Source: a virus
IMG/VR virus record: IMGVR_UViG_3300005548_000480
Location: 1 to 36,577 of that record
Direction: 5' to 3' (one strand)
Length of the DNA: 36,577 nt
This document shows positions 3,640-36,577 of this stretch, in pieces (positions within the stretch are counted from its first letter, which is position 1; each line of letters starts with the position of its first letter). The translations under genes were made by a program, and so were the position numbers. The notes under the pieces are model-generated. The model saw only the letters and a list, made by a program, of their open reading frames with translations. It made no database searches and was not told where the DNA came from.

Positions 3640-4608
3640 TTACAGCGCGCCGGTGATCAACTGCCAGCATTCGGCGTAGTGGACGCGTTCGTCCACGTCG
3701 AAGCGGGCACGGACGACGTCGCCGCGGGTTCGCTCGTCGCGGTAGGTCTCGACGACCGTGCCGATGTCCGAGCCGTCCGCCGACCAGTGATAGGTGCGGC
3801 CGACGCTGGGCTCCTGCACGTCGATGCTCTTGGCGCGAACGCCAACGCCGACGACCGTCTTCGTCCACAGGCTACCCATGGAGAGGGTCTGCGTCTCCTT
3901 GCGGGCGGCCGTGTTGGTCTGCCCGCCGGCGACGATGACCTCTTCCACGTCGAACACCTGGGCGAGCACCATCGCGGTGATCTTGCTCGCTTCGGGATTC
4001 TGGAAGCCGGAGTACTTCAGCCGGTCGATGACCGAATCGCATTCGCGGCAGTGCTGGAATGCTTCCCAGTCCATCGCGACGACGTTGGGCATGAGGCCGC
4101 ACGCGTTGCGCACGGCGATCTTGCGGGTGAGGATGTCCGCGACCGGATCCGCCGAGGCGTGCGTGCTCCAGATGGTGCCCGCCGCAGCGTTGGTGAACGT
4201 GCCGGTATTGACCAGCCTCGTGCACACGCGCTTCTCGTGAGCACGCAGCACGGTGTCGCGTGCACGCTTGGTGGCCACCACTTCGGCGTCGAAGTAGCGG
4301 CGGTAAATCCGCTTGAGGCGGTCGTCGATCGGGACTTCGTGGCCATGGTCGACCGTGGCGTAGAAGTACTCGCCGAAGGTGAACTCGCTGCGGCCGTACG
4401 CGCCGGTGCTGGCGCGCTTGGTGTCCAGATCGCGCAGCAGTTCGGCGACGGGGATCTTGCCGACGTCGGCCGATTGCTCGGCGACTTCTGCGACCGGCAT
4501 CAGCCGGAGACCCACGAAACCGTTACGCGACGCGTCCAGGTCGATCTGTTCCATCGTCGCGCCCAGGTCGGGGCGATTGATGGCAGTGCTGGGAGAGGGA
4601 GAGCTCAT
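3640..4608 (-). CDS. Major capsid protein (lambda gpE-like)
   Basis: 322 aa from the ATG at 4608, with AGGAA a few bases upstream. The length, the position (after protease/scaffold and decoration protein) and sequence features fit the HK97-fold capsid family of lambda gpE type: a Pro-rich N-terminus, GEYFYATVDHGHEVPI-type N-arm and E-loop region, and long helical segments with RRYFDAEVVATKRARD. The central part contains MPNVVAMDWEAFQ, typical of proteins that query a fixed surface position in the capsid axial domain. It should form the shell together with the upstream decoration protein. A strong terminator follows. Confidence is high on role, moderate on subfamily. Confidence 0.85.
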   Translation of the reverse strand: MSSPSPSTAINRPDLGATMEQIDLDASRNGFVGLRLMPVAEVAEQSADVGKIPVAELLRDLDTKRASTGAYGRSEFTFGEYFYATVDHGHEVPIDDRLKRIYRRYFDAEVVATKRARDTVLRAHEKRVCTRLVNTGTFTNAAAGTIWSTHASADPVADILTRKIAVRNACGLMPNVVAMDWEAFQHCRECDSVIDRLKYSGFQNPEASKITAMVLAQVFDVEEVIVAGGQTNTAARKETQTLSMGSLWTKTVVGVGVRAKSIDVQEPSVGRTYHWSADGSDIGTVVETYRDERTRGDVVRARFDVDERVHYAECWQLITGAL

Positions 4609-5811: not shown

Positions 5812-6348
5812 CTACTTGCCGCCGGACTGCATGAAGGCCTGGTGCAGCGCCGGATCTTCGGCGGCGATCTTCATCACCGCTTGCGCCCGGGTAATGCCCT
5901 TTTCCTTCACGAGCTGGTCGCGGCGTTCGATGAACGCGCTCGCGCCCGCGGCACCGTTTCCGGCGGCCGGCTGTTCGGCTGCGGCCGACGGGGTCGCCGG
6001 TACGCCCGGCCTCTTCGGGGTGGCCTCGGCGTTCGCTGCCGCAGTGCGACTGGCGACGCGGCTTTCGATCACGCCATGCGCGCTTTTAGCCTCGTCCATC
6101 GTCCACGCGTTTTTGGCGGCGGCCAGCACGAAGCTGGCGTTCGCCTCGCCCGGAAACGCAGCCTCGAGTTCGGCGATGCTCGCCGGCTTGGGTTCGGCCG
6201 CGGCGGGTGCGGGGTTCGGCGCGGTTGCGGTGGCCGGAGCCGTCGCCGGGGCGTTCGCAGCCGGCGTCTGCGGAGAAGCCACGCCCGCATCGGGTTTGGC
6301 TTCGGCGGGAGCGGTCGCTCCCGTTTGCTGCTGAGCAGTGTTGCCCAT
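5812..6348 (-). CDS. Nested scaffold protein from an internal start (Nu3-like)
   Basis: 178 aa, in frame with and identical to the C-terminal third of the protease (protease residue 352 onwards). The ATG at 6348 is preceded by a near-perfect Shine-Dalgarno AAAGGAGG at ideal spacing, which would have no purpose inside the protease gene unless translation starts there. The product begins MGNTAQQQTG, has an Ala/Pro-rich disordered stretch, then helical segments (SIAELEAAFPGE, and a C-terminal ERRDQLVKEKG helix). It should be the internal scaffold of the procapsid, made in excess over the protease fusion. Confidence 0.8.
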   Translation of the reverse strand: MGNTAQQQTGATAPAEAKPDAGVASPQTPAANAPATAPATATAPNPAPAAAEPKPASIAELEAAFPGEANASFVLAAAKNAWTMDEAKSAHGVIESRVASRTAAANAEATPKRPGVPATPSAAAEQPAAGNGAAGASAFIERRDQLVKEKGITRAQAVMKIAAEDPALHQAFMQSGGK

Positions 6349-7401
6349 GTCAGCCTCCTTTGGTGTAGACACGGCTTCGGAGCCCGCGGCGGAGGGTTGA
6401 TCCTCAGCAGCGTCCTCGGCCAGGGTAGATCCGTCGGCGGAACGTCCGCCGTCGGCTTGGGTCTGTGACCCTTGTTCGATTTTGTTGTCGGCGGCGGCGA
6501 TCGTCGCGCTCACCCGCCCCGGTACTTTCATCGCCGATAATCGCTTCATCGCGGCGTCGAAGCTCTCGATGTGATCGACTAGGCCCGCCGATTTCGCCTG
6601 CCGGCCGACGTGCACCCGCGCGTCGGCGAGTTTGCCCGCGGCGTCGGTGCTAATCCCGCGCCCCTTCGCGATTGCCTCCACGAAGACCGCGTGCATCGCG
6701 TCGATCTGCCGCTGCCACTCGGCGAGTTGCTTAGGTGTGATTTCCGTGCCCGGTACGCCAGCGCCTTTCGCTTCGGCGCTCTTGATGACGTGAACCTTCA
6801 CGCCCTGCTGCGCCGCCATCTGCGAGCGGTCCTGCACAACGGCCAGCACGCCGATCGATCCGACGGTCGCCGTCTCGTTCGACGCGATCCAGTTAGCCTG
6901 TGCGCCCAGCCAGTACGCGGCCGATGCCATCAAGCCGTCCGCGTACGCCGCCAGCGGCTTTTTCGCCGCGGCGTCGGCGACCTCTGTCGCCAGTTCTTCG
7001 GTGCCGCTTACCGTCCCACCCGGCGAGTCGTAACGCATCATGATTGCCCGCACACGGTCATTGGCGACTGCGTGCCGGATCGTGCGGCGGAGCATGACGG
7101 TGCTGGTCGAGTCCGACCAGCTGCTTTCCTGTTTCATCAGCGAACCGACAACGTCGATGATCGCAATGCCATCGGGTGTCAGTGTGTAGCTGTACATCGT
7201 CGGCGACTGCTCGCCGCTCGCCGCGACCGGCATCGCCGCCGACTTGCTACGCAGCTCGATCTGCTTGGCGATGTGCACGCTCCAGTCGATCTTCGCCGCG
7301 GTGTCGCGCAGTAGGTCTGCCGCCGATTCGAGGATCGCCCATACGCCCAGGTACTGGGTGAGGTATGGGGTCTGCATAGTGATGGTGATCGCTTCGCTCA
7401 T
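5812..7401 (-). CDS. S49 (SppA-type) capsid maturation protease fused to scaffold
   Basis: 529 aa from the ATG at 7401, which overlaps the upstream stop (ATGA). Residues about 75-290 form an S49/ClpP-crotonase-fold peptidase, as in lambda gpC. The nucleophile is probably S160 in DGLMASAAYW, with TVGSIGV after it, and the general base is probably K212 in the KSAEAKGAG context. Residues about 310-529 are low-complexity Ala/Pro/Gly/Gln-rich and then helical, as expected of a scaffold. An internal start at 6348 produces the scaffold alone. The protease should cleave the scaffold and itself during head maturation. This is the same C/Nu3 arrangement as in lambda. Confidence 0.88.
   Translation of the reverse strand: MSEAITITMQTPYLTQYLGVWAILESAADLLRDTAAKIDWSVHIAKQIELRSKSAAMPVAASGEQSPTMYSYTLTPDGIAIIDVVGSLMKQESSWSDSTSTVMLRRTIRHAVANDRVRAIMMRYDSPGGTVSGTEELATEVADAAAKKPLAAYADGLMASAAYWLGAQANWIASNETATVGSIGVLAVVQDRSQMAAQQGVKVHVIKSAEAKGAGVPGTEITPKQLAEWQRQIDAMHAVFVEAIAKGRGISTDAAGKLADARVHVGRQAKSAGLVDHIESFDAAMKRLSAMKVPGRVSATIAAADNKIEQGSQTQADGGRSADGSTLAEDAAEDQPSAAGSEAVSTPKEADMGNTAQQQTGATAPAEAKPDAGVASPQTPAANAPATAPATATAPNPAPAAAEPKPASIAELEAAFPGEANASFVLAAAKNAWTMDEAKSAHGVIESRVASRTAAANAEATPKRPGVPATPSAAAEQPAAGNGAAGASAFIERRDQLVKEKGITRAQAVMKIAAEDPALHQAFMQSGGK
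6354..6361 (-). promoter_or_regulatory. Internal ribosome binding site for the nested scaffold
   Basis: AAAGGAGG on the minus strand, 5 bases before the internal ATG at 6348. It is the strongest Shine-Dalgarno in this part of the window and decides the nested start. Confidence 0.8.
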
Positions 7402-7586
7402 GGTTTTTTCGCCGGGTTCGTGTCGTGCCAGTCCTGGATTGATCTCACGCCATTCACCATCAATTGCTGCGCGCTCGCCGCGGCGGCGTGCCGCGAGATG
7501 AACGGCTTACTGCTGGCGATGGTGTCCTCGCCGTCGAATAGGAACCACGCCCAGCCGTCGGCGAACGGTTTGATTTCAATGTGCAT
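7398..7586 (-). CDS. Small YegP/DUF1508-like protein
   Basis: 62 aa from the ATG at 7586. The pattern IKPFADGWAWFLFDGED, then SSKPFISRHAAAASAQQL, resembles one half of a DUF1508/YegP repeat: a beta hairpin carrying an aromatic core, followed by a helix after a Ser/Lys turn. Function of this family is unknown. Its stop overlaps the protease start (ATGA) and its start lies inside the preceding gene, so it belongs to the head operon. Assignment is from pattern only. Confidence 0.55.
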   Translation of the reverse strand: MHIEIKPFADGWAWFLFDGEDTIASSKPFISRHAAAASAQQLMVNGVRSIQDWHDTNPAKKP

Positions 7587-7851
7587 GGAGTCTCGCCCCT
7601 CGCGCTCTGGGCAGCGTCACGCCGCGCGGCGGCCGCAGTCGCGCCCGAAGCAATTCGAGTGACCGCCTCAAGGTGTCGCGTACGCCGTCGGCTTTGATCC
7701 CCGTCCGGCTGCTGATTTCATCGATTCCCATGCCCCCGCCGAACCGCATCGCCACCACTGGCTGGCAGTCTTCGGGGAGCATCCACAAAAGGCGTGCGAA
7801 TTCGGGCCTTTTGAGGGCATTTCTGGTTGCCAATTCCGCCGCTCTTAACAT
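7576..7851 (-). CDS. Small sigma-70 region 4-like helix-turn-helix protein
   Basis: 91 aa from the ATG at 7851. The core (residues about 20-70) reads like region 4 of a sigma factor: LLWMLPEDCQPVVAMRF, then GMGIDEISSRTGIKADGVRDTL as the helix-turn-helix, and RRSLELLRARL as the closing helix. The end is Arg/Pro-rich. It lacks regions 1-3, so it would act as a DNA-binding regulator rather than a full sigma factor. It is the last minus-strand gene before the inverted cassette, diverges from the amidoligase across about 100 AT-rich bases, and could control either side. Confidence 0.6.
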   Translation of the reverse strand: MLRAAELATRNALKRPEFARLLWMLPEDCQPVVAMRFGGGMGIDEISSRTGIKADGVRDTLRRSLELLRARLRPPRGVTLPRARGARLHAH

Positions 7852-7857
7852 CTTAAA

Positions 7858-7921
7858 AATCGCCGAATTTCGCCGTTTTTTCGCATATTTTGCTTGCTTT
7901 GGTAACGCTTTACGTTATACT
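7858..7921 (+). promoter_or_regulatory. Divergent AT-rich control region with plus-strand promoter
   Basis: A sigma-70-like promoter is visible: -35 TTGCTT (7894-7899), 16-base spacer, -10 TATACT (7916-7921), about 33 bases before the amidoligase ATG. An inverted repeat TAACG-N5-CGTTA overlaps the spacer and -10. Further left, AATCGCCGAA (7858-7867) is followed by a second TCGCCG copy; the same 10-mer recurs at 10517. These are operator candidates for the XRE protein encoded at 10007. The stretch is clearly more AT-rich than its flanks. Confidence 0.65.
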
Positions 7922-7954
7922 CTGCAAATCAACTTAACGAAGGGATTGGAACTT

Positions 7955-8770
7955 ATGAACGCGAGCGAAATTACATTCGGGATTGAGATCGAGACGACGA
8001 TTCCTGCCGGTGCTCTGCCGGTTGGTTCCTACACCCACGGCGCGCCGGTCGTGGCGCTGCCGGGTTGGACCGCCAAGTACGACGGTTCGATCCGCGCTCG
8101 CGGCAGCCGTCAGGGTTGCGAATTCGTCTCGCCGGTCCTGAAAGGCGCGGAAGGCGTCGAGTCGATGCTGGCGGCCATCCGCTACATCAAGTCGATCGGC
8201 GCGGAAGTGAACGCCTCGTGCGGCCTTCACGTTCACGTTGGCTTCGATAAAACGAACGTGGTCGCGAGCGTGAAACTGGCGACGCTGGTTGCCAACTTCG
8301 AAAAGGCGATCTTCGCCAGCACCGGAACCAAGTCGCGGGAACGCGGCACCTACTGCCGTCCGATGCAACAGTACGGCACCGCCGACCGGGCGCTGCAGTC
8401 GTCGCGCGGGAACCGCTACCACCTGTGCAATTTCGCCAGCGAACACGCGACGGTTGAATTCCGAGCATTCGCCGCAACGTTGAACGAAAGCAAGATCATC
8501 GGCCATGTCGCCATGTGCGTCGCGCTGGTCGAGCGGGCTTTGACCGCCAAGCGCGTCACAAACTGGGTCGCCCCGGCCGTGTCGGAAACGTCGCCGATCC
8601 GCCGCAACGGCGAAGGCCAGACCGCCCTGACCCGCTTGTTCTACCAACTCGGTTGGATCAAGGGCCGTACGTCGCACACGTTCGGAAACATCGCCCCGCA
8701 GGGCAAGGCGGCGATCGACGTTGCCAAGCGGGCGCTGATGAAGATGGCCCGCAAGTATGACGCCCGCTGA
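7955..8770 (+). CDS. Amidoligase_2 family enzyme (glutamine-synthetase-like COOH-NH2 ligase)
   Basis: 271 aa. The ATG at 7955 is chosen because it follows the promoter and GAAGGGA, and because the conserved FGIEIE motif starts at residue 8. Motifs in order: FGIEIE (8-13), KYDGSI (41-46), CEFVSP (55-60), CGLHVHVG (89-96), RYHLCNF (154-160) and TVEFRAF (166-172). These are the acidic and His/Arg residues that bind ATP and metal in the glutamine-synthetase-like fold of the predicted Amidoligase_2 family. Such enzymes are predicted to form amide or isopeptide bonds, often with ammonia from a linked class II amidotransferase, as encoded two genes downstream. The substrate is unknown. Confidence 0.85.
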   Translation: MNASEITFGIEIETTIPAGALPVGSYTHGAPVVALPGWTAKYDGSIRARGSRQGCEFVSPVLKGAEGVESMLAAIRYIKSIGAEVNASCGLHVHVGFDKTNVVASVKLATLVANFEKAIFASTGTKSRERGTYCRPMQQYGTADRALQSSRGNRYHLCNFASEHATVEFRAFAATLNESKIIGHVAMCVALVERALTAKRVTNWVAPAVSETSPIRRNGEGQTALTRLFYQLGWIKGRTSHTFGNIAPQGKAAIDVAKRALMKMARKYDAR

Positions 8771-8808
8771 TGGGCGTCTCGCTGAGGGGCGGGCGTTGTG
8801 CCCGCCCC
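8761..8808 (+). other. Two consecutive intergenic hairpins after the amidoligase
   Basis: CGCCC-N6-GGGCG (8761-8776) spans the stop codon, and GGGGCGGGC-N5-GCCCGCCCC (8786-8808) is a perfect 9-bp GC stem. No T-run follows, so these probably stabilise or process the mRNA between the first and second cassette genes rather than terminate it. Confidence 0.5.
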
Positions 8809-8843
8809 CGCGAATCGAGAGTCACAAGTTTTTGGAGAACGCA

Positions 8844-9266
8844 ATGCCTTACTCAGCCAACTATCCCGCGACCGTCGCCGAAGTGCTGGACGATTCGATG
8901 ACATTCAAGCCCGACGCCCTACGAGCCGTGCGGGAGCTGGCCGCCGCCAAGCCCTGGCGAATGTCGGCCGATGAACGGTTGGAACTCTTTCAGGCGACCG
9001 CCCGCAAGCTCGCGGCGGCCTATGGCATCGGCTGCCCGAGAGTGTCGCGCGGGACAATGGATTGCTACACGCCCCACAGCAACCGCATCTGGCTCACCGG
9101 CAAGATGTCGGTCGTAACGTTCCTTCACGAATTCGGCCACGCTCGCGGGTTTGATGAACGGCAAACATGCGGCTGGTCGATCAATTTGTTTCGCCGCTGT
9201 TTTCCGCGCAGCTTCGCCCGCTGCCGCCAGGTCAATCACACGCTCGTCAATGAAGGGAGCCGCTAA
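8844..9266 (+). CDS. HExxH-motif protein, predicted small zinc metallopeptidase
   Basis: 140 aa from the ATG at 8844, preceded by TTGGAGAAC. The zinc-binding motif HEFGH is at residues 95-99 inside VVTFLHEFGHARGF, and a conserved-looking tail follows: WSINLFRRCFPRSFARC and NHTLV. A third ligand could be E105 or H132. The N-terminal half is helical (EVLDDSMTF, DERLELFQATARKLAAAYG). The size and the HExxH helix suggest a minimal SprT- or ImmA-type metallopeptidase, but the subfamily is not recognised. Its place between an amide-forming ligase and a glutaminase-type enzyme suggests processing of the same peptide substrate or its product. Confidence 0.7.
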   Translation: MPYSANYPATVAEVLDDSMTFKPDALRAVRELAAAKPWRMSADERLELFQATARKLAAAYGIGCPRVSRGTMDCYTPHSNRIWLTGKMSVVTFLHEFGHARGFDERQTCGWSINLFRRCFPRSFARCRQVNHTLVNEGSR

Positions 9267-9268
9267 CC

Positions 9269-9991
9269 ATGTGCAGCATTTTTGGATTCATCGCCCGCAA
9301 GTCGTCGCCCGTTGATCTTCGCATCGTGCGAAACATCGTCGAGGCGAACATCCGCCGCGGCCCCCACGCCTTCGGCTTCGCTTGGATCGACTCGCGCAGC
9401 CGGTTGCATGCCTACAAGCAGTGCGGCCGCCTCACCGACATGCTGGGCGTACTGGCCATGGCCCGCGACGCTCGCATGCTGGTCGGCCATCTGCGCTACG
9501 CCACACACGGCGAGCCGGAGAACAACATCAACAACCATCCGCACCCCGTCGACGGCGGCTGGCTCGTTCACAACGGCATGGTTCGCAACTATGCCGAGCT
9601 GCTGAACGAACACGGGATCGCGCCCGTGAGCGAATGCGACAGCGAAGTTCTCGCGCACCTGATCGAGCGGTCGGAGGAGTCAAAGTACGTTCGCCGCGCG
9701 GCGGAGACCGTCGAGCAGACCGACGGCAACCTCGCGATGCTCGCCCTATGGGCGCGACCGAACAAGCTGATCGCCGTTCGTCGCGGCAACCCGCTGCACT
9801 TCGGCTATACGACGGCCGGGCTCTACATGGCCACGCTCGCCGACCGATTACCGGGCAAAGTGCGGCCGATGGCCGACAACTTCGCGATCGAGTTCAACAC
9901 CGCCGGCCAGAACACGCGAGCCGTGCAGCTCGATGAGCGTGCGGGCGTGGTGGCCGGACTGTACGATTTGGAAACCTACCGAGGCGGGTAA
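9269..9991 (+). CDS. Class II glutamine amidotransferase (Ntn-hydrolase)
   Basis: 240 aa from the ATG at 9269, two bases after the previous stop, with AGGGAG inside the preceding gene. Cys2 becomes the N-terminal nucleophile (MCSIFGF). The other class II residues are present: R76 in GHLRYATHG, N102-G103 in VHNGMVRN, and D124 in ECDSEV. No second domain follows, so it is a stand-alone glutaminase subunit that would release ammonia from glutamine, most simply for the amidoligase in the same operon. Genomic pairing of the two families has been described in computational surveys of amidoligases. The physiological product is unknown. Confidence 0.88.
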   Translation: MCSIFGFIARKSSPVDLRIVRNIVEANIRRGPHAFGFAWIDSRSRLHAYKQCGRLTDMLGVLAMARDARMLVGHLRYATHGEPENNINNHPHPVDGGWLVHNGMVRNYAELLNEHGIAPVSECDSEVLAHLIERSEESKYVRRAAETVEQTDGNLAMLALWARPNKLIAVRRGNPLHFGYTTAGLYMATLADRLPGKVRPMADNFAIEFNTAGQNTRAVQLDERAGVVAGLYDLETYRGG

Positions 9992-10006
9992 CCGCCGGGA
10001 GATCAC

Positions 10007-10294
10007 ATGGGACTCGACCGAGAAAAGATCAAAGCCGCTCGCGAACGGGCGGGCCTCACGCAACAGCAGGCGGGCGAGGCCATTGGCGCGAAGTCGACCG
10101 CCGCCAAGGTGCGTTGGTACCAGATCGAGGCCGGCACACAGGGCAATCCGTCATTGGAAACTATCGAAGCGGTCTGCCGCGTGCTGGGCGTCGGCGTGGA
10201 CGAGATCCTCGCCGCCGATTCGCCCGCGATGCCCCATCGCCGCGCGGCTCAGAACCGCAAGCGGCCATCGTCCTCGGCCGGATCGAAGGGCTGA
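10007..10294 (+). CDS. XRE-family helix-turn-helix regulator
   Basis: 95 aa from the ATG at 10007. Residues about 4-70 are a Cro/C1-type domain: REKIKAARERAGLTQQQAGEAIG, a recognition region KVRWYQIEAGTQG, then SLETIEAVCRVLGVGVDEIL. The tail is basic and Ser/Arg-rich. It lies 15 bases after the amidotransferase in the same direction and probably autoregulates the cassette through the repeats near 7858-7921 and 10517-10533. Its 3' end overlaps a convergent minus-strand gene by 46 bases. Confidence 0.85.
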   Translation: MGLDREKIKAARERAGLTQQQAGEAIGAKSTAAKVRWYQIEAGTQGNPSLETIEAVCRVLGVGVDEILAADSPAMPHRRAAQNRKRPSSSAGSKG

Positions 10295-10479
10295 CCGTCT
10301 TTCAGCACGAACGTGAGTGCGGTCTCGTGCTTCACGCCGAACAGTTCGACCTCTTTGATGCACTCGTCACACTGAAATACCGGCAGCAGCGCGGGCGAGT
10401 CGCCGACGCTGATCTCGCCGGACTGGGTGAGCAGGCGGTTGCATTTTGGGCACGGGAATTGGGCGAGCGAGTCACTCAT
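10249..10479 (-). CDS. Small zinc-ribbon protein
   Basis: 76 aa from the ATG at 10479. Two cysteine knuckles, CPKC (10-13) and CDEC (37-40), make a plausible zinc ribbon, followed by a beta-rich acidic tail (KHETALTFVLKDGQPFDPAEDD). It converges on the XRE gene with a 46-base overlap. Function unknown; small zinc ribbons of this kind can bind nucleic acid or protein. Confidence 0.6.
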   Translation of the reverse strand: MSDSLAQFPCPKCNRLLTQSGEISVGDSPALLPVFQCDECIKEVELFGVKHETALTFVLKDGQPFDPAEDDGRLRF

Positions 10480-10587: not shown

Positions 10588-11226
10588 ATGAGCATTTCAC
10601 TGGTTTGTCAGCGATGCGGCGCGGGGTACGAGCGTTCGCCCTATGCCGTGAAACGCAGTAAGTTCTGCTCGCTCGAATGCTTCTGGGCAGCCAAGCGGAA
10701 ATACCTTCCCGAAGAATCCAAACGGATCAGGATGCGCAATTGGAAGGTGGCGAACCGCGATAAGGTCCGTACCTGTTGGCGTCGCGGCGTACAGCGGAAA
10801 AAGGCCGCTGGATTATGTTTTGTCTGCGGAAAATTGCCGCCCGCGAACGGCCTCTTGCGCTGTGCGGGTTGTGAGGAAAAGAATCGCATTACCCGTCAGC
10901 GGTCCCGCGCAAAATTACGGCGGGAAGTGCTCGCCGCGTATGGTGGTGCCGTCTGTGCGTGCTGCGGTGAAACCGAGGAAAGATTTCTTACCATCGACCA
11001 CATTCACGGCGGTGGCGAACAGCACCGCCGAATCGTAACTGCGGCCGAGTTTTACCGCTGGCTGAGAAAGAATCAGTTTCCGCCTGGGTTTCAGGTTCTC
11101 TGCTTTAATTGCAACCTTGGTCGTTCGATTAATGGCGGCGTATGTCCGCACGTCTCTCGACAACATCAAGCGACCGGAATTATTCCGAACGCCGCTGCTT
11201 CTTCGGGACGGGCCGGCCCGACATAG
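10588..11226 (+). CDS. HNH endonuclease with N-terminal zinc fingers
   Basis: 212 aa from the ATG at 10588. The N-terminus has a CxxC...CxxxC knuckle (C7, C10, C27, C31), a second pair follows (C77, C80, C92, C95), and the HNH module is at about 120-190: CACC (123-126), IDHIHGGG (136-143) and CFNCNLGR (172-179), ending CPH. It resembles the stand-alone HNH enzymes of phages, which act as homing-type or packaging-associated nucleases. The last 20 codons overlap the convergent ABC-GNAT gene by 61 bases, so the end was probably extended when the gene arrived. GC is somewhat lower than in the surrounding head genes. Confidence 0.8.
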   Translation: MSISLVCQRCGAGYERSPYAVKRSKFCSLECFWAAKRKYLPEESKRIRMRNWKVANRDKVRTCWRRGVQRKKAAGLCFVCGKLPPANGLLRCAGCEEKNRITRQRSRAKLRREVLAAYGGAVCACCGETEERFLTIDHIHGGGEQHRRIVTAAEFYRWLRKNQFPPGFQVLCFNCNLGRSINGGVCPHVSRQHQATGIIPNAAASSGRAGPT

Positions 11227-12305
11227 CGGAACCCCGCCGTGATTCGGCTGCTGGCGGTCGCCCGCTTGTACTTTTCCGCGTCCTTGAATCCCTTCGAGCC
11301 GCTCGTCAGCCCGGGCTTTCGAATCATCGCCCAGAGCTTTGACTTGGCGCGATGGCGGATGAACGCCGGATGGCTCGTCGAGCTGTAGTACGGCACGCCC
11401 GTCGCGCGGTAGAGCGAAGCAACGTACTCCGAAGTCGCATTCCCCAGGCCGATTCCTTGGAATGTTGGCAAGCAGACGGTTCTGTGCTCGCGGTAGCTCA
11501 GGCCTTTGCTCGTGGGCGCGTGCATGACCGCCGTGAACGTCGCGGGCTCGCCGGCGATGAGGCCGATGAAGCAGGCGGCGTTGTTGTGGATCGAGTGGGC
11601 GAGGTAATGATGAGGTGCGAAGAGGGCCCAAGCCTTTCGATGCACGCGGACGATTTCCAAGCCGATGTCGGGTCGCCGAAGCCGCCCCCGAGTGTGCTCA
11701 CACAGCACACGTTGGCCGGGCGTGATGTCGATGACCCAGTCGGGCTCGAAGTACGGGACCGCGTCCGGATGAACGCAGAGCGCGACCAGTTGGCCGCCCC
11801 GCCGCCGAACCGCACTGGCGGCGGCGGCCGCCGCCACTTGGCGGGCCTGGGCGTGCACGATCGAACCGAATTCGTCGATCACCGCGCGGGCCGGTCGCTC
11901 GGCGAGCGTGCGGGCGAGATCCACGCGGAACTTGCCGCCGTTGCTGAGCGCGTGATACGGCTTCTTCCAGTCCGGCGGCGAGGAAAACCCCACACGGCTG
12001 AGCAGACCTGTGATGTCGTCGATGCTCATCCCCTCGGCGAACCCGTCAGCGATGCACATGTCGGTCGGCCAAGCCCAATCGCCTTGGTTGACCAGCTCGC
12101 CCGTGAATAACTCCGCGGCGATCGTGCTCTTGCCCGCCATCGAGGGCCCAACAATCACGCCGACCGACCATTCGGCGGGCAGCTTGATGTCGGTTTCCCA
12201 CTCCTGCACGCTCGTCGCATTGGTCGACAGATCGAACTTACCGCAGATCTGCATGAACCGCGGCGTGCGCTTGACGGTGATGTCTCGGCGGATGCTCGAC
12301 TTCAT
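11166..12305 (-). CDS. ABC-type ATPase fused to Mom-like GNAT domain (predicted DNA-modification enzyme)
   Basis: 379 aa. The ATG at 12305 overlaps the upstream stop as ATGA. Residues about 45-200 are an ABC ATPase: Walker A GPSMAGKST (53-61), signature LSNGGKF (120-126), Walker B AVIDEF (141-146) and H-loop H179. Residues about 215-379 are a GNAT fold with the acyl-CoA loop QGIGLG (283-288), an HHYLAHSIHNNA stretch and a YSSTSHPAF segment. This architecture matches the ABC-ATPase plus acetyltransferase family (COG2401-type) whose GNAT half is related to Mu Mom, which modifies adenine in phage DNA. Two ParB-type proteins sit just upstream. The likely role is DNA base modification against host restriction; the exact chemistry is inferred. 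Confidence 0.78.
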   Translation of the reverse strand: MKSSIRRDITVKRTPRFMQICGKFDLSTNATSVQEWETDIKLPAEWSVGVIVGPSMAGKSTIAAELFTGELVNQGDWAWPTDMCIADGFAEGMSIDDITGLLSRVGFSSPPDWKKPYHALSNGGKFRVDLARTLAERPARAVIDEFGSIVHAQARQVAAAAAASAVRRRGGQLVALCVHPDAVPYFEPDWVIDITPGQRVLCEHTRGRLRRPDIGLEIVRVHRKAWALFAPHHYLAHSIHNNAACFIGLIAGEPATFTAVMHAPTSKGLSYREHRTVCLPTFQGIGLGNATSEYVASLYRATGVPYYSSTSHPAFIRHRAKSKLWAMIRKPGLTSGSKGFKDAEKYKRATASSRITAGFRYVGPARPEEAAAFGIIPVA

Positions 12306-12514
12306 TTTCTGAATCCGCTGCAGCTGCTCGCCGCGACGGCTGCCATCTTGTCGAGATAACAGTCGCGGATGTCCTCGAAGGCCTTGCGCTCCGCCCATGC
12401 GATCGACTGGCTGTGCTGAAACTGCCGCACGTACGCGGCGCGGCACTTGTGCCATTCGCCCTGCCAGTGGCAAGGCAGATCGCCGACACACTCGATGGGC
12501 GCGACAGATGACAT
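12302..12514 (-). CDS. Small protein of unknown function, 70 aa
   Basis: 70 aa from the ATG at 12514, with its stop overlapping the ABC-GNAT start (ATGA), so the two are translationally coupled. It contains CVGDLPCHWQGEWHKC, an aromatic and Cys/His-rich turn, then a helix AWAERKAFEDIRDCYLDKM. Three cysteines and a histidine could bind a metal. Its place between a ParB protein and the ABC-GNAT enzyme suggests an accessory subunit of the same system. I do not recognise the family. Confidence 0.6.
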   Translation of the reverse strand: MSSVAPIECVGDLPCHWQGEWHKCRAAYVRQFQHSQSIAWAERKAFEDIRDCYLDKMAAVAASSCSGFRK

Positions 12515-12522
12515 GGGGATCG

Positions 12523-13425
12523 TCAGGCGGTTTTTCGCGCGGCGAGCTTCGGCAGCCGGCCGCGAATGTCTTCGGCCAAGCCGGTGAGGTTGTCACTCAC
12601 TTCTTCCAGCGCCTCGATCAGCTGCCGCTTGGACCGATTGTCGATGGCGTCGATCATGCTGCGGAGTTGAGCCGGCGGCATATCAAAGAAGATGCCGATG
12701 CGGTTGGAAAAATGCTCGAGGTACGCCTCAATCGTCGTGATTGACCGCTTGGTGCCGTTGGCCCGCGTGTGGGCGTCTTCGCCAGCAGCGGCTTTTTCCC
12801 TGATCACAATCCGTTGGGCGGCGACGAGCGACATGCCCTCCCCCCGCGTGATCTTCTTCGCCATCGACAGCTGGCGGCTTTGCGGTAGGCCCGTGAGGGT
12901 GAGCGCGACGCTGAACGCCAGCCGCGGCTTGTCCTCTTCGCCGTCGCAAACGAGCATGTCCTGCACGTCCTGGTGCAGCTTGAGCAGGCTCAGATGCTGG
13001 CTGACCCAGCAGACGCTCTTGCCGGCAATGCGTGCCATCTGCTCGATCGTCTTGCCGTTGCGCTGCATCCGGGCGAGCCCGGTGGCGATTTCGATGCAGT
13101 CGTGATCCTGCTTGCCGAAGTTGGCGGCGAAGCTGGCGACGAAGATCTCCTCGCCGCTGGCGTCGGCCCGCACTTCCGCGCGGAACGGCACGCCGACCAT
13201 GCGGCAGGCCCGCAGGCGCCGCTCGCCGTCGACGAGTTGGGCGTCGTACTTCGGATCGCCATCGACCAGCGTCACGATGCCCGGTGACGACTGCCCAATT
13301 TCGAAGATGCTGTCCGCCAGTTCCTTGATGCCCTTGAACCGCTTGCGCGGCTGATCCGGCAACGGGCGAACCCGCGCGGCATCGAACTCCTGAACATGCG
13401 TTTTGCTGGTTTTTGGGGTGGCCAC
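12523..13425 (-). CDS. ParB/Spo0J-family DNA-binding protein
   Basis: 300 aa from a GTG at 13425, whose G is the last base of the upstream TAG (TAGTG). Residues about 12-105 are the ParB N-terminal nucleotide-binding domain with VDGERRLRA (65-73). A helix-turn-helix follows at about 120-150 (KTIEQMARIAGKSVCWVSQHL). The C-terminal third is helical and charged. Unlike plasmid or chromosome ParB there is no ParA gene nearby. A site-specific DNA-binding role, possibly guiding the ABC-GNAT enzyme or packaging, is more likely than partition. Confidence 0.82.
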   Translation of the reverse strand: MATPKTSKTHVQEFDAARVRPLPDQPRKRFKGIKELADSIFEIGQSSPGIVTLVDGDPKYDAQLVDGERRLRACRMVGVPFRAEVRADASGEEIFVASFAANFGKQDHDCIEIATGLARMQRNGKTIEQMARIAGKSVCWVSQHLSLLKLHQDVQDMLVCDGEEDKPRLAFSVALTLTGLPQSRQLSMAKKITRGEGMSLVAAQRIVIREKAAAGEDAHTRANGTKRSITTIEAYLEHFSNRIGIFFDMPPAQLRSMIDAIDNRSKRQLIEALEEVSDNLTGLAEDIRGRLPKLAARKTA

Positions 13426-13661: not shown

Positions 13662-14347
13662 CAGGTCACGTTGGGCGCGGTGAATTCCCAGCCCAGTTCT
13701 TCGAGCTTTTTGATCTTGGCGGTCTGGTCCTTCTCGCCACTGCAGATGACGATCAACTTGAACACCGCCGGATAGCTCTGCTCTTCTCCTGGTGGCTCTT
13801 CGTCCGGCTTCTTCGGGGCGAAACGGTGGGCGGATTCGAAATCGCCGTCGTCGAGCGCGTCCAGAGCTTCGGTGGTCAGACCGAATTCCCCCAGATCAAG
13901 GTCGGGCAGTTCGATCTTCAACTCGTCCGACTTGCGCCGCAGGACCTCGATGTCGTACTCGCTGTTGTCGGCCGTGAGGTTGTCGGCTAGGCCGAACGCC
14001 TCCAACTCGGCGGGCGATAGGTTGCTCGGCACTGCGGCGATCCACTTCCAGCCGAGGATCGTCTGCCCCGCCTCGTGCCGGCCGCTACCGACCTTGATGG
14101 TCCGCGTGGCCGGGTCGAAGTGGACCATGTGCTGCTGGCCGAACCGTTTCAGGCTAGCGGCCGTCTGCGGCAGGTCCCGGTCCGTATGCAGCTTGGCATT
14201 TTCCGGATCCCGCTTGAGCGAGTCGATCGGCACCGCGAACTGTCGGAAATGCGGGGTAATATGCACTAGCTCGGCGGCCGGGACGGCGTGGCCCTCAAGC
14301 GTGTGCACGATCTCTGCGGATGACGCGGCGGGTCGGCGCTTGGCCAT
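13661..14347 (-). CDS. ParB N-terminal-domain protein (ParB/sulfiredoxin fold)
   Basis: 228 aa from the ATG at 14347, overlapping the portal stop (TAATG). Residues about 38-140 match the ParB N-terminal domain found in phage proteins beside terminase and portal genes: VPIDSLKRDPENAKLH, ASLKRFGQ, the GSGRHEA motif (87-93) that replaces GERR, and LADNLTADN. The C-terminal part is an acidic linker and a small domain (PAVFKLIVICSGEKD, then KIKKLEELGWEF). No HTH is obvious. This fold includes CTPases and nucleases; it may be a packaging or DNA-modification accessory. Confidence 0.75.
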   Translation of the reverse strand: MAKRRPAASSAEIVHTLEGHAVPAAELVHITPHFRQFAVPIDSLKRDPENAKLHTDRDLPQTAASLKRFGQQHMVHFDPATRTIKVGSGRHEAGQTILGWKWIAAVPSNLSPAELEAFGLADNLTADNSEYDIEVLRRKSDELKIELPDLDLGEFGLTTEALDALDDGDFESAHRFAPKKPDEEPPGEEQSYPAVFKLIVICSGEKDQTAKIKKLEELGWEFTAPNVT

Positions 14348-15924
14348 TACTTCTTCCCGCTCGGCGTGCCGGGCGCCGTACCGCTATCATTTTGCGTGTC
14401 GAGGCTGTCGAACGTCTGGCCGCCCTTGTATAGGTCGCGGTAGTAGAGGTCCCGCCAGGTGACGTCGCGGGCGTCGTCGCCGTATTTTTCCTTCAGCGCC
14501 TTGGTGGCGATGATCGCAGCCTCGATCCAGTGGCCGTTGGATTTGACGCTGTCCTTGACGAACTGCTTGAAGTCGCCGCCGTTCTCGGCGTGGAAGTCGA
14601 TCAGCGAAAGCTGCCCCGTCTGCAGGCGGATGGCCGCGGCGGAGGCGTCGTGCAGTGGCTGCGGATACGGCCACGCCGGCTTCTGCCACCAGTGCTTGAA
14701 GACCTTAATGCCCCGCTTCTGCGAGGCCCGAGCCATCGTCCGGTCTTCGGCGAGCATCTGCCGCGTGCGAAAGACGGCCGCTTGATTGTGAAACTGACCC
14801 TCAATGCGGCCGCGGGTGCTGATCCAGCCGAGCTTCGCCTGGTCGTACACGAAGCGGATGCTGGAAAAGCTCTCGCCGGTGCCGTCCATCATGCCCACGC
14901 AGTACGGCAGGCTGAGGTTGAGGCAGATCATCTGCAGCGTGTGCCGCAGGTGGGCGAGCGTTTCGCTCGACGGGATGTTCGCCGCCTTGAGCTCAAGGTC
15001 TTCGCCTTTGTTGCCGCGGATGAACGCGCCTGGCTCGATCTCTTCCAGCGTCTGCGTGGTGCCGTCGGATTTTACGATCTCCGTGCGGCTGCCGGTTTTG
15101 ACGTCGCTGACGTAGTTTTGGTCGCGCTTGAGGAACCAGGCGATCATCGCGGCGAACTGCTGTTTCACCAGCAGCGCGAAGTCAATGTCCTCGTACTTGC
15201 CAGCCTTGTCGAAGATCGGGTGGGCGGCGGTAATGCCGCGCGTCATCCGGATGCGGTGGCTGTCGCATACCTGCCAGACCTGCTCGTACCCTTCCTCGTC
15301 CAGGGCGTCGATCTGCACGAACTGGTCAAGTCGCAGCGAGCTGACCGGCGTCAGGGCGACCGGATCCTTGACGATCCAGTAACGCTGGTGACGCCTTCGC
15401 TCGTCGAGCTCAATGCCGTGAATGATTCGCCGGTTACGGACGAACGTCGGGGTGCGGATTTCGTCGGCCTCGTACAGCCGAACAGCTCCATCGTCCTGGC
15501 CGGCGGCAAAGACGTCGCCGTCAACGAAATCACTGAAGACGACGATCTTTTCCATCTCCGCGAACGTGCGGCGGCCGGCGGAGTCACAGCGGCGGCGGTC
15601 CTTCGCCCAGTCGATCCACGAGTCCTTCAAGTCGGTGTTGAGCTTTTCGTCGCCGGTGTCGGGCTCGTAGGAGAAGCCGGGGCCGACGAGGTTGATCACC
15701 GCCCGGTTGATCAGGAACTTGAAGTTTGAGTCGTCGCGGACCATGGCCCGCACGTACTCGCGCATGCGAATGAAATTCGCCTCGGAGTAGTAGTGCGTGT
15801 CGCCTGAGCCGCCGGAGCTGCTGATGCCCACGCGCTTGCGGCGGAAGCGGTTGTCGGTCATGCCGGCGTATTCCGCCTTCATGCCGCTCAGACTCTGCAT
15901 AGCGTTGGATGAAGGCGCGGGCAT
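14347..15924 (-). CDS. Phage portal protein (lambda gpB family)
   Basis: 525 aa from the ATG at 15924. Features of lambda-type portals are present: an N-terminal stretch with MREYVRAMVRDD, IDWAKDRRRCDSAGR, VVFSDFVDGDVFA, and the RPxx/GITAAHPIFDKAGKYEDI region, then DGTGESFSSIRFVYDQAK and a long C-terminal helix region ending in a disordered GTAPGTPSGKK tail. It forms the dodecameric DNA gate at the capsid vertex and docks the terminase. It lies after the terminase and one or two small genes, as in lambda, but the next genes are ParB-type rather than the protease, because of the inserted block. Confidence 0.9.
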   Translation of the reverse strand: MPAPSSNAMQSLSGMKAEYAGMTDNRFRRKRVGISSSGGSGDTHYYSEANFIRMREYVRAMVRDDSNFKFLINRAVINLVGPGFSYEPDTGDEKLNTDLKDSWIDWAKDRRRCDSAGRRTFAEMEKIVVFSDFVDGDVFAAGQDDGAVRLYEADEIRTPTFVRNRRIIHGIELDERRRHQRYWIVKDPVALTPVSSLRLDQFVQIDALDEEGYEQVWQVCDSHRIRMTRGITAAHPIFDKAGKYEDIDFALLVKQQFAAMIAWFLKRDQNYVSDVKTGSRTEIVKSDGTTQTLEEIEPGAFIRGNKGEDLELKAANIPSSETLAHLRHTLQMICLNLSLPYCVGMMDGTGESFSSIRFVYDQAKLGWISTRGRIEGQFHNQAAVFRTRQMLAEDRTMARASQKRGIKVFKHWWQKPAWPYPQPLHDASAAAIRLQTGQLSLIDFHAENGGDFKQFVKDSVKSNGHWIEAAIIATKALKEKYGDDARDVTWRDLYYRDLYKGGQTFDSLDTQNDSGTAPGTPSGKK

Positions 15925-34407: not shown

Positions 34408-35162
34408 GCGGGCACCTCCGTCGGCGCCGGCTTATCTTCCGGGGCGAACTTCGCCGCTACTTTGCGGATCTTGTTGATCGGGAGTCCGTCAACGTCCGCC
34501 TGCGATTTGACACCCAGCGCCGCGATAATGGCTTTGCATCCGTCGTTCTTGCCCGCCTTCACGAGCCGGGCGACCAGCGCCTTGCGTTCCTTTCGCTCGG
34601 CCCGGTCGGCGATGATGTCGTCGCGGGTGATGGTGAATCGCTTCTCGACTTTGTTGCTGTAATCGTCCGCCGCCTGCGCTTTGTACGAGCACGCCGTCAG
34701 CGAGCCTCCGCCGTCTGCAGTGACAGAATCGCCGGGGGCAAACGAGGTGACGGTCACCCGCTTACCTTTCCAGTTGAACTGAAAGCCTACGGCCAGGCGT
34801 TCACGTTGGCGGCTGCTCGCCATGTGGGCGTAATGATGGTTTCGACCGAGATCTACGTCGTCGGCGATGAACGGTGCACGGCCCTGCCATGCCTCAAAAC
34901 TTTGCGCGGCTGCAATGTTTCCTTCGGCGATGGCTTGGGTATAGATCCATTCGACGCTATCCCCGCACCACCGGCTAAACCGGTACTTGCCAGCGACCTT
35001 CGCCAGCGTGTCCTCTGCGAATTCGAAGCCGGCACCGACCGCAAGCCGCAGAGCGCCACGCATGGCGTGGTTGAGACGCTCCCACGAGTGAGATACTTCA
35101 CTGTTAGCCTGCTCCCAGACGAGATCGAGCAGTTGAATGACGGGGTCATTGTTGGATTTCAT
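34404..35162 (-). CDS. Protein of unknown function, 252 aa
   Basis: 252 aa from the ATG at 35162 (ATGA overlap with the PP-loop gene). The N-terminal half is helical (QLLDLVWEQANSEVSHSWERLNHAMRGALR, SFEAWQGRAPFIADDVDLGRNHHYAHMASS). The centre has beta strands (RVTVTSFAPGDSVTADGG). The C-terminal part is charged and helical (EKRFTITRDDIIADRAERKERKALVARLVKAG). It is translationally coupled to the DndC-like enzyme and may be its partner. No family recognised. Confidence 0.65.
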   Translation of the reverse strand: MKSNNDPVIQLLDLVWEQANSEVSHSWERLNHAMRGALRLAVGAGFEFAEDTLAKVAGKYRFSRWCGDSVEWIYTQAIAEGNIAAAQSFEAWQGRAPFIADDVDLGRNHHYAHMASSRQRERLAVGFQFNWKGKRVTVTSFAPGDSVTADGGGSLTACSYKAQAADDYSNKVEKRFTITRDDIIADRAERKERKALVARLVKAGKNDGCKAIIAALGVKSQADVDGLPINKIRKVAAKFAPEDKPAPTEVPA

Positions 35163-36577
35163 TTGCCATCCCCCGGCAGGATCGGGAGCAGCAGTTGGCG
35201 GCTGCCGTCGATGTACTGATCCTCATAAAGCTCGTCGGCGAGCGGCTCGTCGCCGGTCCAGCCGTTGGGCCACTGATTCACGCTCATCAGCTCTTCAATC
35301 CGTGCGACCTCGCTCGCGTTGAGAATGTCGATCTCCGGCCGGCCGGCAGCTCGAGCGGCGGCATTCACTGCAGTTTGGATGGCGAGGATTTGCAGCAGCG
35401 CCCATCGGCGGGCCTCCATCGTCAGCGGCCCCATTCGGTTCTGGTTGGATGTGAGCTTGCCATCCTTCCGCATTTCGCCCGGCGGCTGCCGCAGTCGGTT
35501 CTTCGGCTCGCGCAGTTCACGGTAGATCGCACGCAGGTCCAGCAGCGGCGCAAGATGACCCCACTGTTCTGGAAACACGCGGAGCAGGTTTTCGAGAGCG
35601 AGATCGCGAGTGGCGAGCGGGCAGCCGACGCAGCCCGTGCGGGCGTTGGAGTCGGCGGGATCTTCTTCATCTACGCCGTACGCCACGGCGACGAGCTTGG
35701 TCGGGAAGCCGTGGAACGGCAGCGCGGTCTTTCGGGCCGGAGCGGCGGCGAGCCACTCATCCATCGGCATGCCAGGCGGGATCATCGAGTCGTGCCCGTC
35801 GTTGCCCATCAACCAGTCCCAAATCAGACACGTCCGGAAGTGCAGGAGTGGGCTCAGCTTGTCGCAGACCGCGTCCGGAAGGTCTCGCTGATACCAGCCC
35901 TGGCCGCACTCCGCGCCGTTGCGGCTGCAGGCGACGGCGATCCGAGCATCACGCGCGGCCGACTCCCCGATCCGGACGCCAATGAGCATCAGCGGCTTCT
36001 GTGGAGGATGTTCGGTCCAGAAGTCACATGGGCGGCAGTAGACCCAAAAGGTGCCGTCGTGATCGTTGTCCGTTGCGTCAACGGCGGGCTTGCCGCAGTG
36101 GCAACATAGATTCGACTGCTCGACGGCCGCGGCCAGACGACGCAACTCCATCTCCATCGGCTCGACTTTGATCTGTGCCGTGCACCAGCGGAGCGTGTTG
36201 TTGTTCGGCGGGGGAACGCCCCGCCCGAGCATGTAGACGAAGAACCGCTGATCCATCTCCGCCATCACCGTGCGGCATTCGATCCAGTCGCGTTTGGCCA
36301 AGTCGGCCATGATCGCCTGGGCCGATAGCCAGAGCGGCGGCAGCTCCATGCGGGTATCGCCGTAGAGGACGTACATCTTCCGCGGCCGTGGAACGCGCCC
36401 GGTTTCAATCAGGTGCACAACCAGCGTCACCATCGCCGTCGAGTCCTTTCCGCCGCTAAAGGCAACAGACCAGACGTCATGCCGGGCGCCGTACTCACGC
36501 AGCGATGCCGCGGTCAGCTCGATCGCCTCTTCCGACGTCATGCGGGCATCGTCAAAGATGGTGGGCTGACTGCTCAC
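35159..36577 (-). CDS. DndC/PAPS-reductase-like PP-loop enzyme with zinc-ribbon insert
   Basis: 472 aa from a GTG at the window edge; an upstream start cannot be excluded. The PP-loop SGGKDS (41-46) is preceded by WSVAF, and VLYGDTRMELP (70-80) follows. The segment LGRGVPPP, then LRWCTAQIKVEPM (129-141) matches the DndC type better than CysH. Later come GVRIGES (200-206) with R209, and TGCVGCP (C316, C319). C132 with these two and one more cysteine could hold an Fe-S cluster as in DndC. An insert at about 158-184 (CCHC...CRPC) is probably a zinc ribbon. Enzymes of this type sulfurate DNA with partners DndD and DndE, which are absent here. Possible roles are DNA modification, or another adenylation chemistry. 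Confidence 0.8.
   Translation of the reverse strand: MSSQPTIFDDARMTSEEAIELTAASLREYGARHDVWSVAFSGGKDSTAMVTLVVHLIETGRVPRPRKMYVLYGDTRMELPPLWLSAQAIMADLAKRDWIECRTVMAEMDQRFFVYMLGRGVPPPNNNTLRWCTAQIKVEPMEMELRRLAAAVEQSNLCCHCGKPAVDATDNDHDGTFWVYCRPCDFWTEHPPQKPLMLIGVRIGESAARDARIAVACSRNGAECGQGWYQRDLPDAVCDKLSPLLHFRTCLIWDWLMGNDGHDSMIPPGMPMDEWLAAAPARKTALPFHGFPTKLVAVAYGVDEEDPADSNARTGCVGCPLATRDLALENLLRVFPEQWGHLAPLLDLRAIYRELREPKNRLRQPPGEMRKDGKLTSNQNRMGPLTMEARRWALLQILAIQTAVNAAARAAGRPEIDILNASEVARIEELMSVNQWPNGWTGDEPLADELYEDQYIDGSRQLLLPILPGDGK

Follow-up and report, generated by a model that had tools for sequence, protein, structure and literature searches.

A predicted zincin-like protein linked to the amidoligase of phage amidoligase–glutamine amidotransferase cassettes, and the repeated loss of its HExxH motif

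Introduction

Pairs of an amidoligase and a class II glutamine amidotransferase (GATase) are already known from phages, including phiEco32, LUZ24 and Phage-ZRK32. The first-pass annotation of the DNA analyzed here regarded such pairs as survey predictions only, but published descriptions annotate them in cultured phages (phiEco32, LUZ24, UFV-P2, OM43 phages and Phage-ZRK32). The passages on these phages give no biochemical assay of the pair's activity; one of them suggests a role in cell-wall modification directed against superinfection (PMC10580990, citing Iyer 2009).

In phiEco32 and LUZ24, whose clusters are cited as having been analyzed by Iyer et al. (2009), relatives of the two enzymes described below adjoin each other, and the clusters additionally contain ATP-grasp and UPF0131/GGCT-type genes. 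Phage-ZRK32, a phage of Planctomycetota, likewise encodes an amidoligase and a glutamine amidotransferase; it is set apart by its description, which adds GGCT and glutathione synthase and, in the relevant passages, makes no mention of a HExxH protein (PMC10945688). Two other systems offer partial parallels. In MurT/GatD peptidoglycan amidation, as outlined in the summary of PMC3267633, a ligase-type subunit acts with a separate glutaminase subunit, and the phage pair may work in a similar manner; by that outline, however, its proteins (Mur-ligase-like MurT) belong to families other than those of the phage pair. The Pup ligase PafA and Dop share the COOH-NH2 ligase fold superfamily with the phage amidoligase.

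The cassette analyzed in this study is located in a 36,577-base IMG/VR virus record (GC content of approximately 63%), the whole of which is referred to as the window. As in the phiEco32/LUZ24-type module, an amidoligase and a class II GATase are encoded in one operon. Unlike in those phages, a gene for a HExxH protein, termed HEX, lies between the two, and the set has its own promoter and is placed among head genes; no match to HEX or to the neighboring Zn-ribbon protein was found in the phiEco32 and LUZ24 stretches searched. In the literature surveyed, mostly at the level of titles and abstracts, a zincin partner of the amidoligase–GATase pair is not described. The new elements are HEX as a linked third component and its repeated conversion into a pseudo-peptidase. 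Phage amidoligase–GATase pairs have repeatedly been annotated, and HEX turns these two orphan enzymes into a testable three-protein system. We consider it probable (about 60%) that the cassette encodes a split glutamine-dependent amide synthetase, with HEX as its dedicated third component, in a moron-like locus acting on the host.

Genetic organization of the cassette

Four plus-strand ORFs had been proposed to interrupt the head gene region, and all were found at the predicted positions and on the predicted strand. They encode the amidoligase (7955–8770), HEX (8844–9266; ATG at 8844 with GGAGAACGCA upstream, stop at 9266), a stand-alone GATase (9269–9991) and an XRE/HTH protein (10007–10294; HTH_31/HTH_3). 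The cassette is flanked by genes for an S49 head-maturation protease (5812–7401, minus strand) and the portal protein (14347–15924, minus strand), and the window also contains the major head protein gene (3640–4608). The location within the head operon was correctly assigned, but the stretch is cargo-rich, since Zn-ribbon, HNH, ABC-ATPase/GNAT and ParB-like genes also separate the cassette from the portal gene.

The Zn-ribbon gene (10249–10479, minus strand; two CxxC motifs in an alignment of four) is convergent with the cassette and overlaps the 3′ end of the XRE gene. It is followed by the HNH gene and by a gene encoding an ABC-ATPase fused to a GNAT-like domain (11166–12596, minus strand; phrog_11143, 271 bits; weak ABC_tran match). 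On the other side, a small sigma-70 region 4-like protein (7576–7851, minus strand; PF08281 just over the cut-off) is encoded next to the head protease gene.

The amidoligase and the glutamine amidotransferase

The motifs FGIEIE and CGLHVHVG, on which the proposal of an amide-forming ligase had been based, are present in the amidoligase, which matches PF12224 (COOH-NH2 ligase/glutamine-synthetase-like fold) with 73.5 bits against a gathering cut-off of 22. Its predicted catalytic residues are intact: E11, E13, D43, E56, H92, E168 and R170 are invariant among 58 relatives. Foldseek comparison of the AF2 model (pLDDT 96.9) returned YbdK (E = 1.5e-4), GshAB, glutamine synthetase, PafA and Dop, consistent with a glutamine synthetase-like fold. 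The protein is accordingly annotated as a predicted ATP-dependent amide-bond-forming enzyme. Among five aligned amidoligases, that of locus L003 (5006–6052) carries an extra C-terminal segment, FPVGTRVTVEYPGGFGFQHGQEGMVV, absent from the other four.

The GATase consists of the glutaminase domain only (GATase_6, glmS-like) and matches GlmS structures (E = 6e-22). The assignment as a glutaminase-type ammonia source was borne out by an alignment of five sequences, in which C2, R76, N102, G103 and D124 are invariant. All four motif patterns (Cys2/R/HNG/D) were recognized in 57 of 67 distinct sequences. Six others failed the arginine pattern alone, yet read GHCRYATHG, and the GATase of L055 failed the N-terminal Cys pattern alone, yet reads MCGLF, so that the fault lies with the patterns; the GATases of L106, L035 and L088 are contig-edge fragments too short for a verdict. 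The motifs are therefore kept by every copy long enough to be judged. No match to the GATase was obtained in the collection of named phages at 1e-8, which places its closest relatives outside that collection.

Distribution and linkage of HEX

A search with an amidoligase profile yielded 80 viral and 30 genome loci. The 12 closest genome loci all derive from Planctomycetota MAGs; the phage host is therefore probably a planctomycete, with the caveat that phage contigs may be misplaced by binning. In HMM scans, two dozen phage or Planctomycetota loci carried the amidoligase along with HEX and GATase, usually with a convergent Zn-ribbon gene; this recurrence is not due to chance. Many further loci contain the amidoligase and GATase but not HEX.

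The first-pass annotation had named lack of conserved linkage of the HExxH gene as grounds for discarding its proposal. Linkage was found when loci were retrieved with a HEX profile alone. This gave 15 loci, reduced to 13 after three near-identical contigs were merged, and an amidoligase is encoded in the same record in all 12 that could be tested (divergent in L086); L088, cut by a contig edge, was set aside. In one of the retrieved records, a 112-kb phage, the two genes are approximately 13 kb apart. Only the profile scan detected these relatives, as a scan of viral contigs with the single HEX protein found none. Geobacillus phage GR1, which also encodes an amidoligase, was the single HEX match among 50,697 named phage records. 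HEX is thus a genuine linked partner of the amidoligase. The three genes do not form an obligate trio, given the HEX-less loci and four fragmentary HEX-positive records in which GATase was not found; the latter suggest that HEX follows the amidoligase more closely than it follows the GATase.

The possibility that HEX is a chromosomal gene of planctomycetes was rejected: it was detected in one of 392 planctomycete genomes, the seed itself, in a search that for most genomes scored 10 of the first-look candidates. When locus L100, on a 228-kb Planctomycetota contig, was examined for phage head genes, the related-phage proteins used as queries matched nothing in the stretches flanking the cassette, and Pfam matches there were few.

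Two of the neighboring genes also recur. In 21 loci (a few of which share a contig) and in L098–L100, the Zn-ribbon gene stands alongside the complete three-gene cassette, and the ABC-ATPase/GNAT gene is found near 18 distinct HEX-positive cassettes versus one HEX-negative locus. The XRE gene is not conserved: phmmer detected no XRE relative in any related locus. Its proposed role as the regulator of the unit is consequently unsupported, and it is treated as a local neighbor outside the conserved unit.

HEX is a predicted zincin-like protein that has repeatedly lost its active-site motif

HEX does not belong to a known family as judged from Pfam, NCBIfam, PHROG and PADLOC, none of which gave a match, and comparison of its sequence profile with the PDB produced only chance-level matches. 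The protein is confidently modeled by AF2 (pLDDT 94.8) as a small zincin-like fold; this and the other structure models are of single proteins, and the underlying alignments do not include Geobacillus phage GR1. One viral protein matches the model with a TM-score of 0.69. No PDB match is significant, and the similarity to PprI/IrrE (the best hit, E = 0.55) and ArdC is weak. HEX resembles the zincins PprI/IrrE, ArdC and SprT-like proteins in its HExxH helix and, weakly, in fold, but differs from them in its HExxH-x5-Glu spacing and in the absence of the motif from half of its family.

The PprI/IrrE match, together with the XRE gene adjoining the cassette, could point to an ImmA/IrrE-like switch, in which HEX would cleave the XRE repressor and the two enzymes would be mere cargo. 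Given the weak fold scores, the lack of XRE relatives in related loci and the position of the GATase gene between HEX and XRE, such a switch appears highly improbable.

The description of HEX as zinc protease-like holds for the window protein, which carries the full zinc-site motif (HEFGHARGFDE, with Glu105 as the probable third zinc ligand), but not for the family. In an alignment of 29 HEX proteins, HExxH is intact in 14 and missing from 15. Glu105 is kept in all 14 intact proteins versus 2 of the 15 motif-less ones (Fisher p = 1.8e-6, a value inflated by relatedness), i.e. HExxH and Glu105 have been lost jointly in most of the latter. HEX also has a conserved WSxNLFxxxFPRS tail; S123 does not vary, and W111, F116 and P121 persist in most copies. 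The HEX tree requires at least four changes of motif state, two of them forced by well-supported branches, most inner branches being weak. In L013 (5955–6629) HEX is split across two frames, reflecting either a frameshift or an assembly error.

Motif-less HEX proteins are mostly still linked to an amidoligase. In the three motif-less pairs analyzed, selection is purifying (omega of 0.24, 0.15 and 0.37), intact pairs giving values of 0.14–0.31, in comparisons that are few and partly saturated. Since related phages keep the protein after loss of the active site, HEX seems to have a role beyond cleavage, and an HExxH motif in a single phage protein does not necessarily indicate that proteolysis is what selection preserves.

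These data bear directly on the make-and-cleave logic of the first-pass annotation, according to which a capsid or host protein would receive a peptide mark from the amidoligase and GATase, and this mark would be trimmed or removed by HEX acting as a zinc protease. The confident zincin-like model and the intact HExxH and Glu105 of the window protein and 13 relatives are compatible with such a cycle, and PafA/Dop, described in the consulted part of PMC7947786 as an opposing ligase/hydrolase pair, provides a precedent. Nevertheless, the loss of the motif from more than half of the family, the switches on the tree and the purifying selection on motif-less pairs leave it unsupported as the defining logic of the unit. 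Moreover, no tag-like small protein, Pup-like or otherwise, was recognized, and the promoter and antisense placement described below do not suggest modification of the virion. We regard make-and-cleave as unlikely.

Another explanation is that the cassette is a host metabolic gene set, the pair being of benefit to the host's nitrogen or amino-acid metabolism, a role put forward for Phage-ZRK32. In the passages concerned, PMC10945688 reports that this planctomycete phage encodes an amidoligase and GATase alongside GGCT and glutathione synthase, and describes effects on host growth, but the link made there from genes to growth is inferential. No GGCT/UPF0131 or ATP-grasp gene was found among the scanned subset of window ORFs (the window may be a fragment), and metabolism would assign no role to a pseudo-peptidase. 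This explanation seems quite unlikely.

Promoter and placement of the cassette

The proposed sigma-70-type promoter (7894–7921, plus strand) is present upstream of the amidoligase gene, with boxes TTGCTT (7894–7899) and TATACT (7916–7921) separated by N16 and matching the consensus at 8 of 12 positions, but it was not reported by a single-sequence promoter scan of the window. Support was obtained by comparison. The pattern TTGnnn-N16-18-TAnnnT was sought within 120 bp upstream of amidoligase genes and in 200 shuffles, and occurred in 15 of 23 HEX-positive loci (shuffle mean 0.77, maximum 3) and 10 of 22 HEX-negative loci (mean 0.89, maximum 4); taken together, 25 of the 45 loci carry it, where shuffling yields about 1.7. 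As the pattern was chosen after the upstream regions had been viewed and the loci are related, these counts are not blind and not completely independent. Upstream of the GATase, used as a control, there was a small excess (3 of 18 versus 0.23 in shuffles).

The cassette is antisense to the terminase or portal gene in the window and in L015, L083, L009 and L099, and has the same sense as the head genes in L004 and L010. A promoter of its own and antisense placement are typical of prophage accessory (moron) loci (PMC7067206), which the cassette resembles in both respects. For this reason the capsid-modifying role considered earlier is not favored. A tyrosine recombinase scored above the cut-off in four of eight related phage records; no integrase or tyrosine recombinase was found in the window.

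Possible function of the cassette

In the proposed split amide synthetase, the stand-alone GATase would free ammonia from glutamine, and the GS-fold amidoligase would activate a carboxylate with ATP and join it to ammonia or another amine. The presence of a GATase points to ammonia, not to a protein amine, as the acceptor, which would distinguish the system from PafA/Dop. HEX, as the dedicated third component, would most likely bind the substrate peptide or dock on the ligase; the window protein, with its full zinc-site motif, may also cleave. Because the zinc site is gone from about half of the family and the protein is nonetheless kept, the shared task of HEX is probably binding or specificity rather than proteolysis.

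Running off its own promoter, antisense to the head genes, the set would be expressed like a moron, possibly in lysogeny. This placement suggests that its target lies in the infected or lysogenic host (cell envelope, host protein or small peptide) and not in the virion. Tentatively, HEX could be an amidoligase subunit of a new class: a factor for substrate recognition, derived from a zinc-peptidase fold and repeatedly turned from enzyme into pure binder, which might provide phages with a tunable peptide- or envelope-amidating complex. As a linked partner seen here almost only in phage sequence, and alternating between intact and motif-less forms, HEX offers a handle on what the amidoligase recognizes.

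Other genes of the window

Two further minus-strand genes were noted. The first (945–1703) encodes an unusual fusion of a holin-like N-terminus to a receiver domain of the response-regulator type (PF00072; its 32.4 bits exceed the cut-off). The second (35162–36577) encodes a PAPS-reductase-like protein (phrog_12882, 457 bits in three stretches) and runs off the end of the window.
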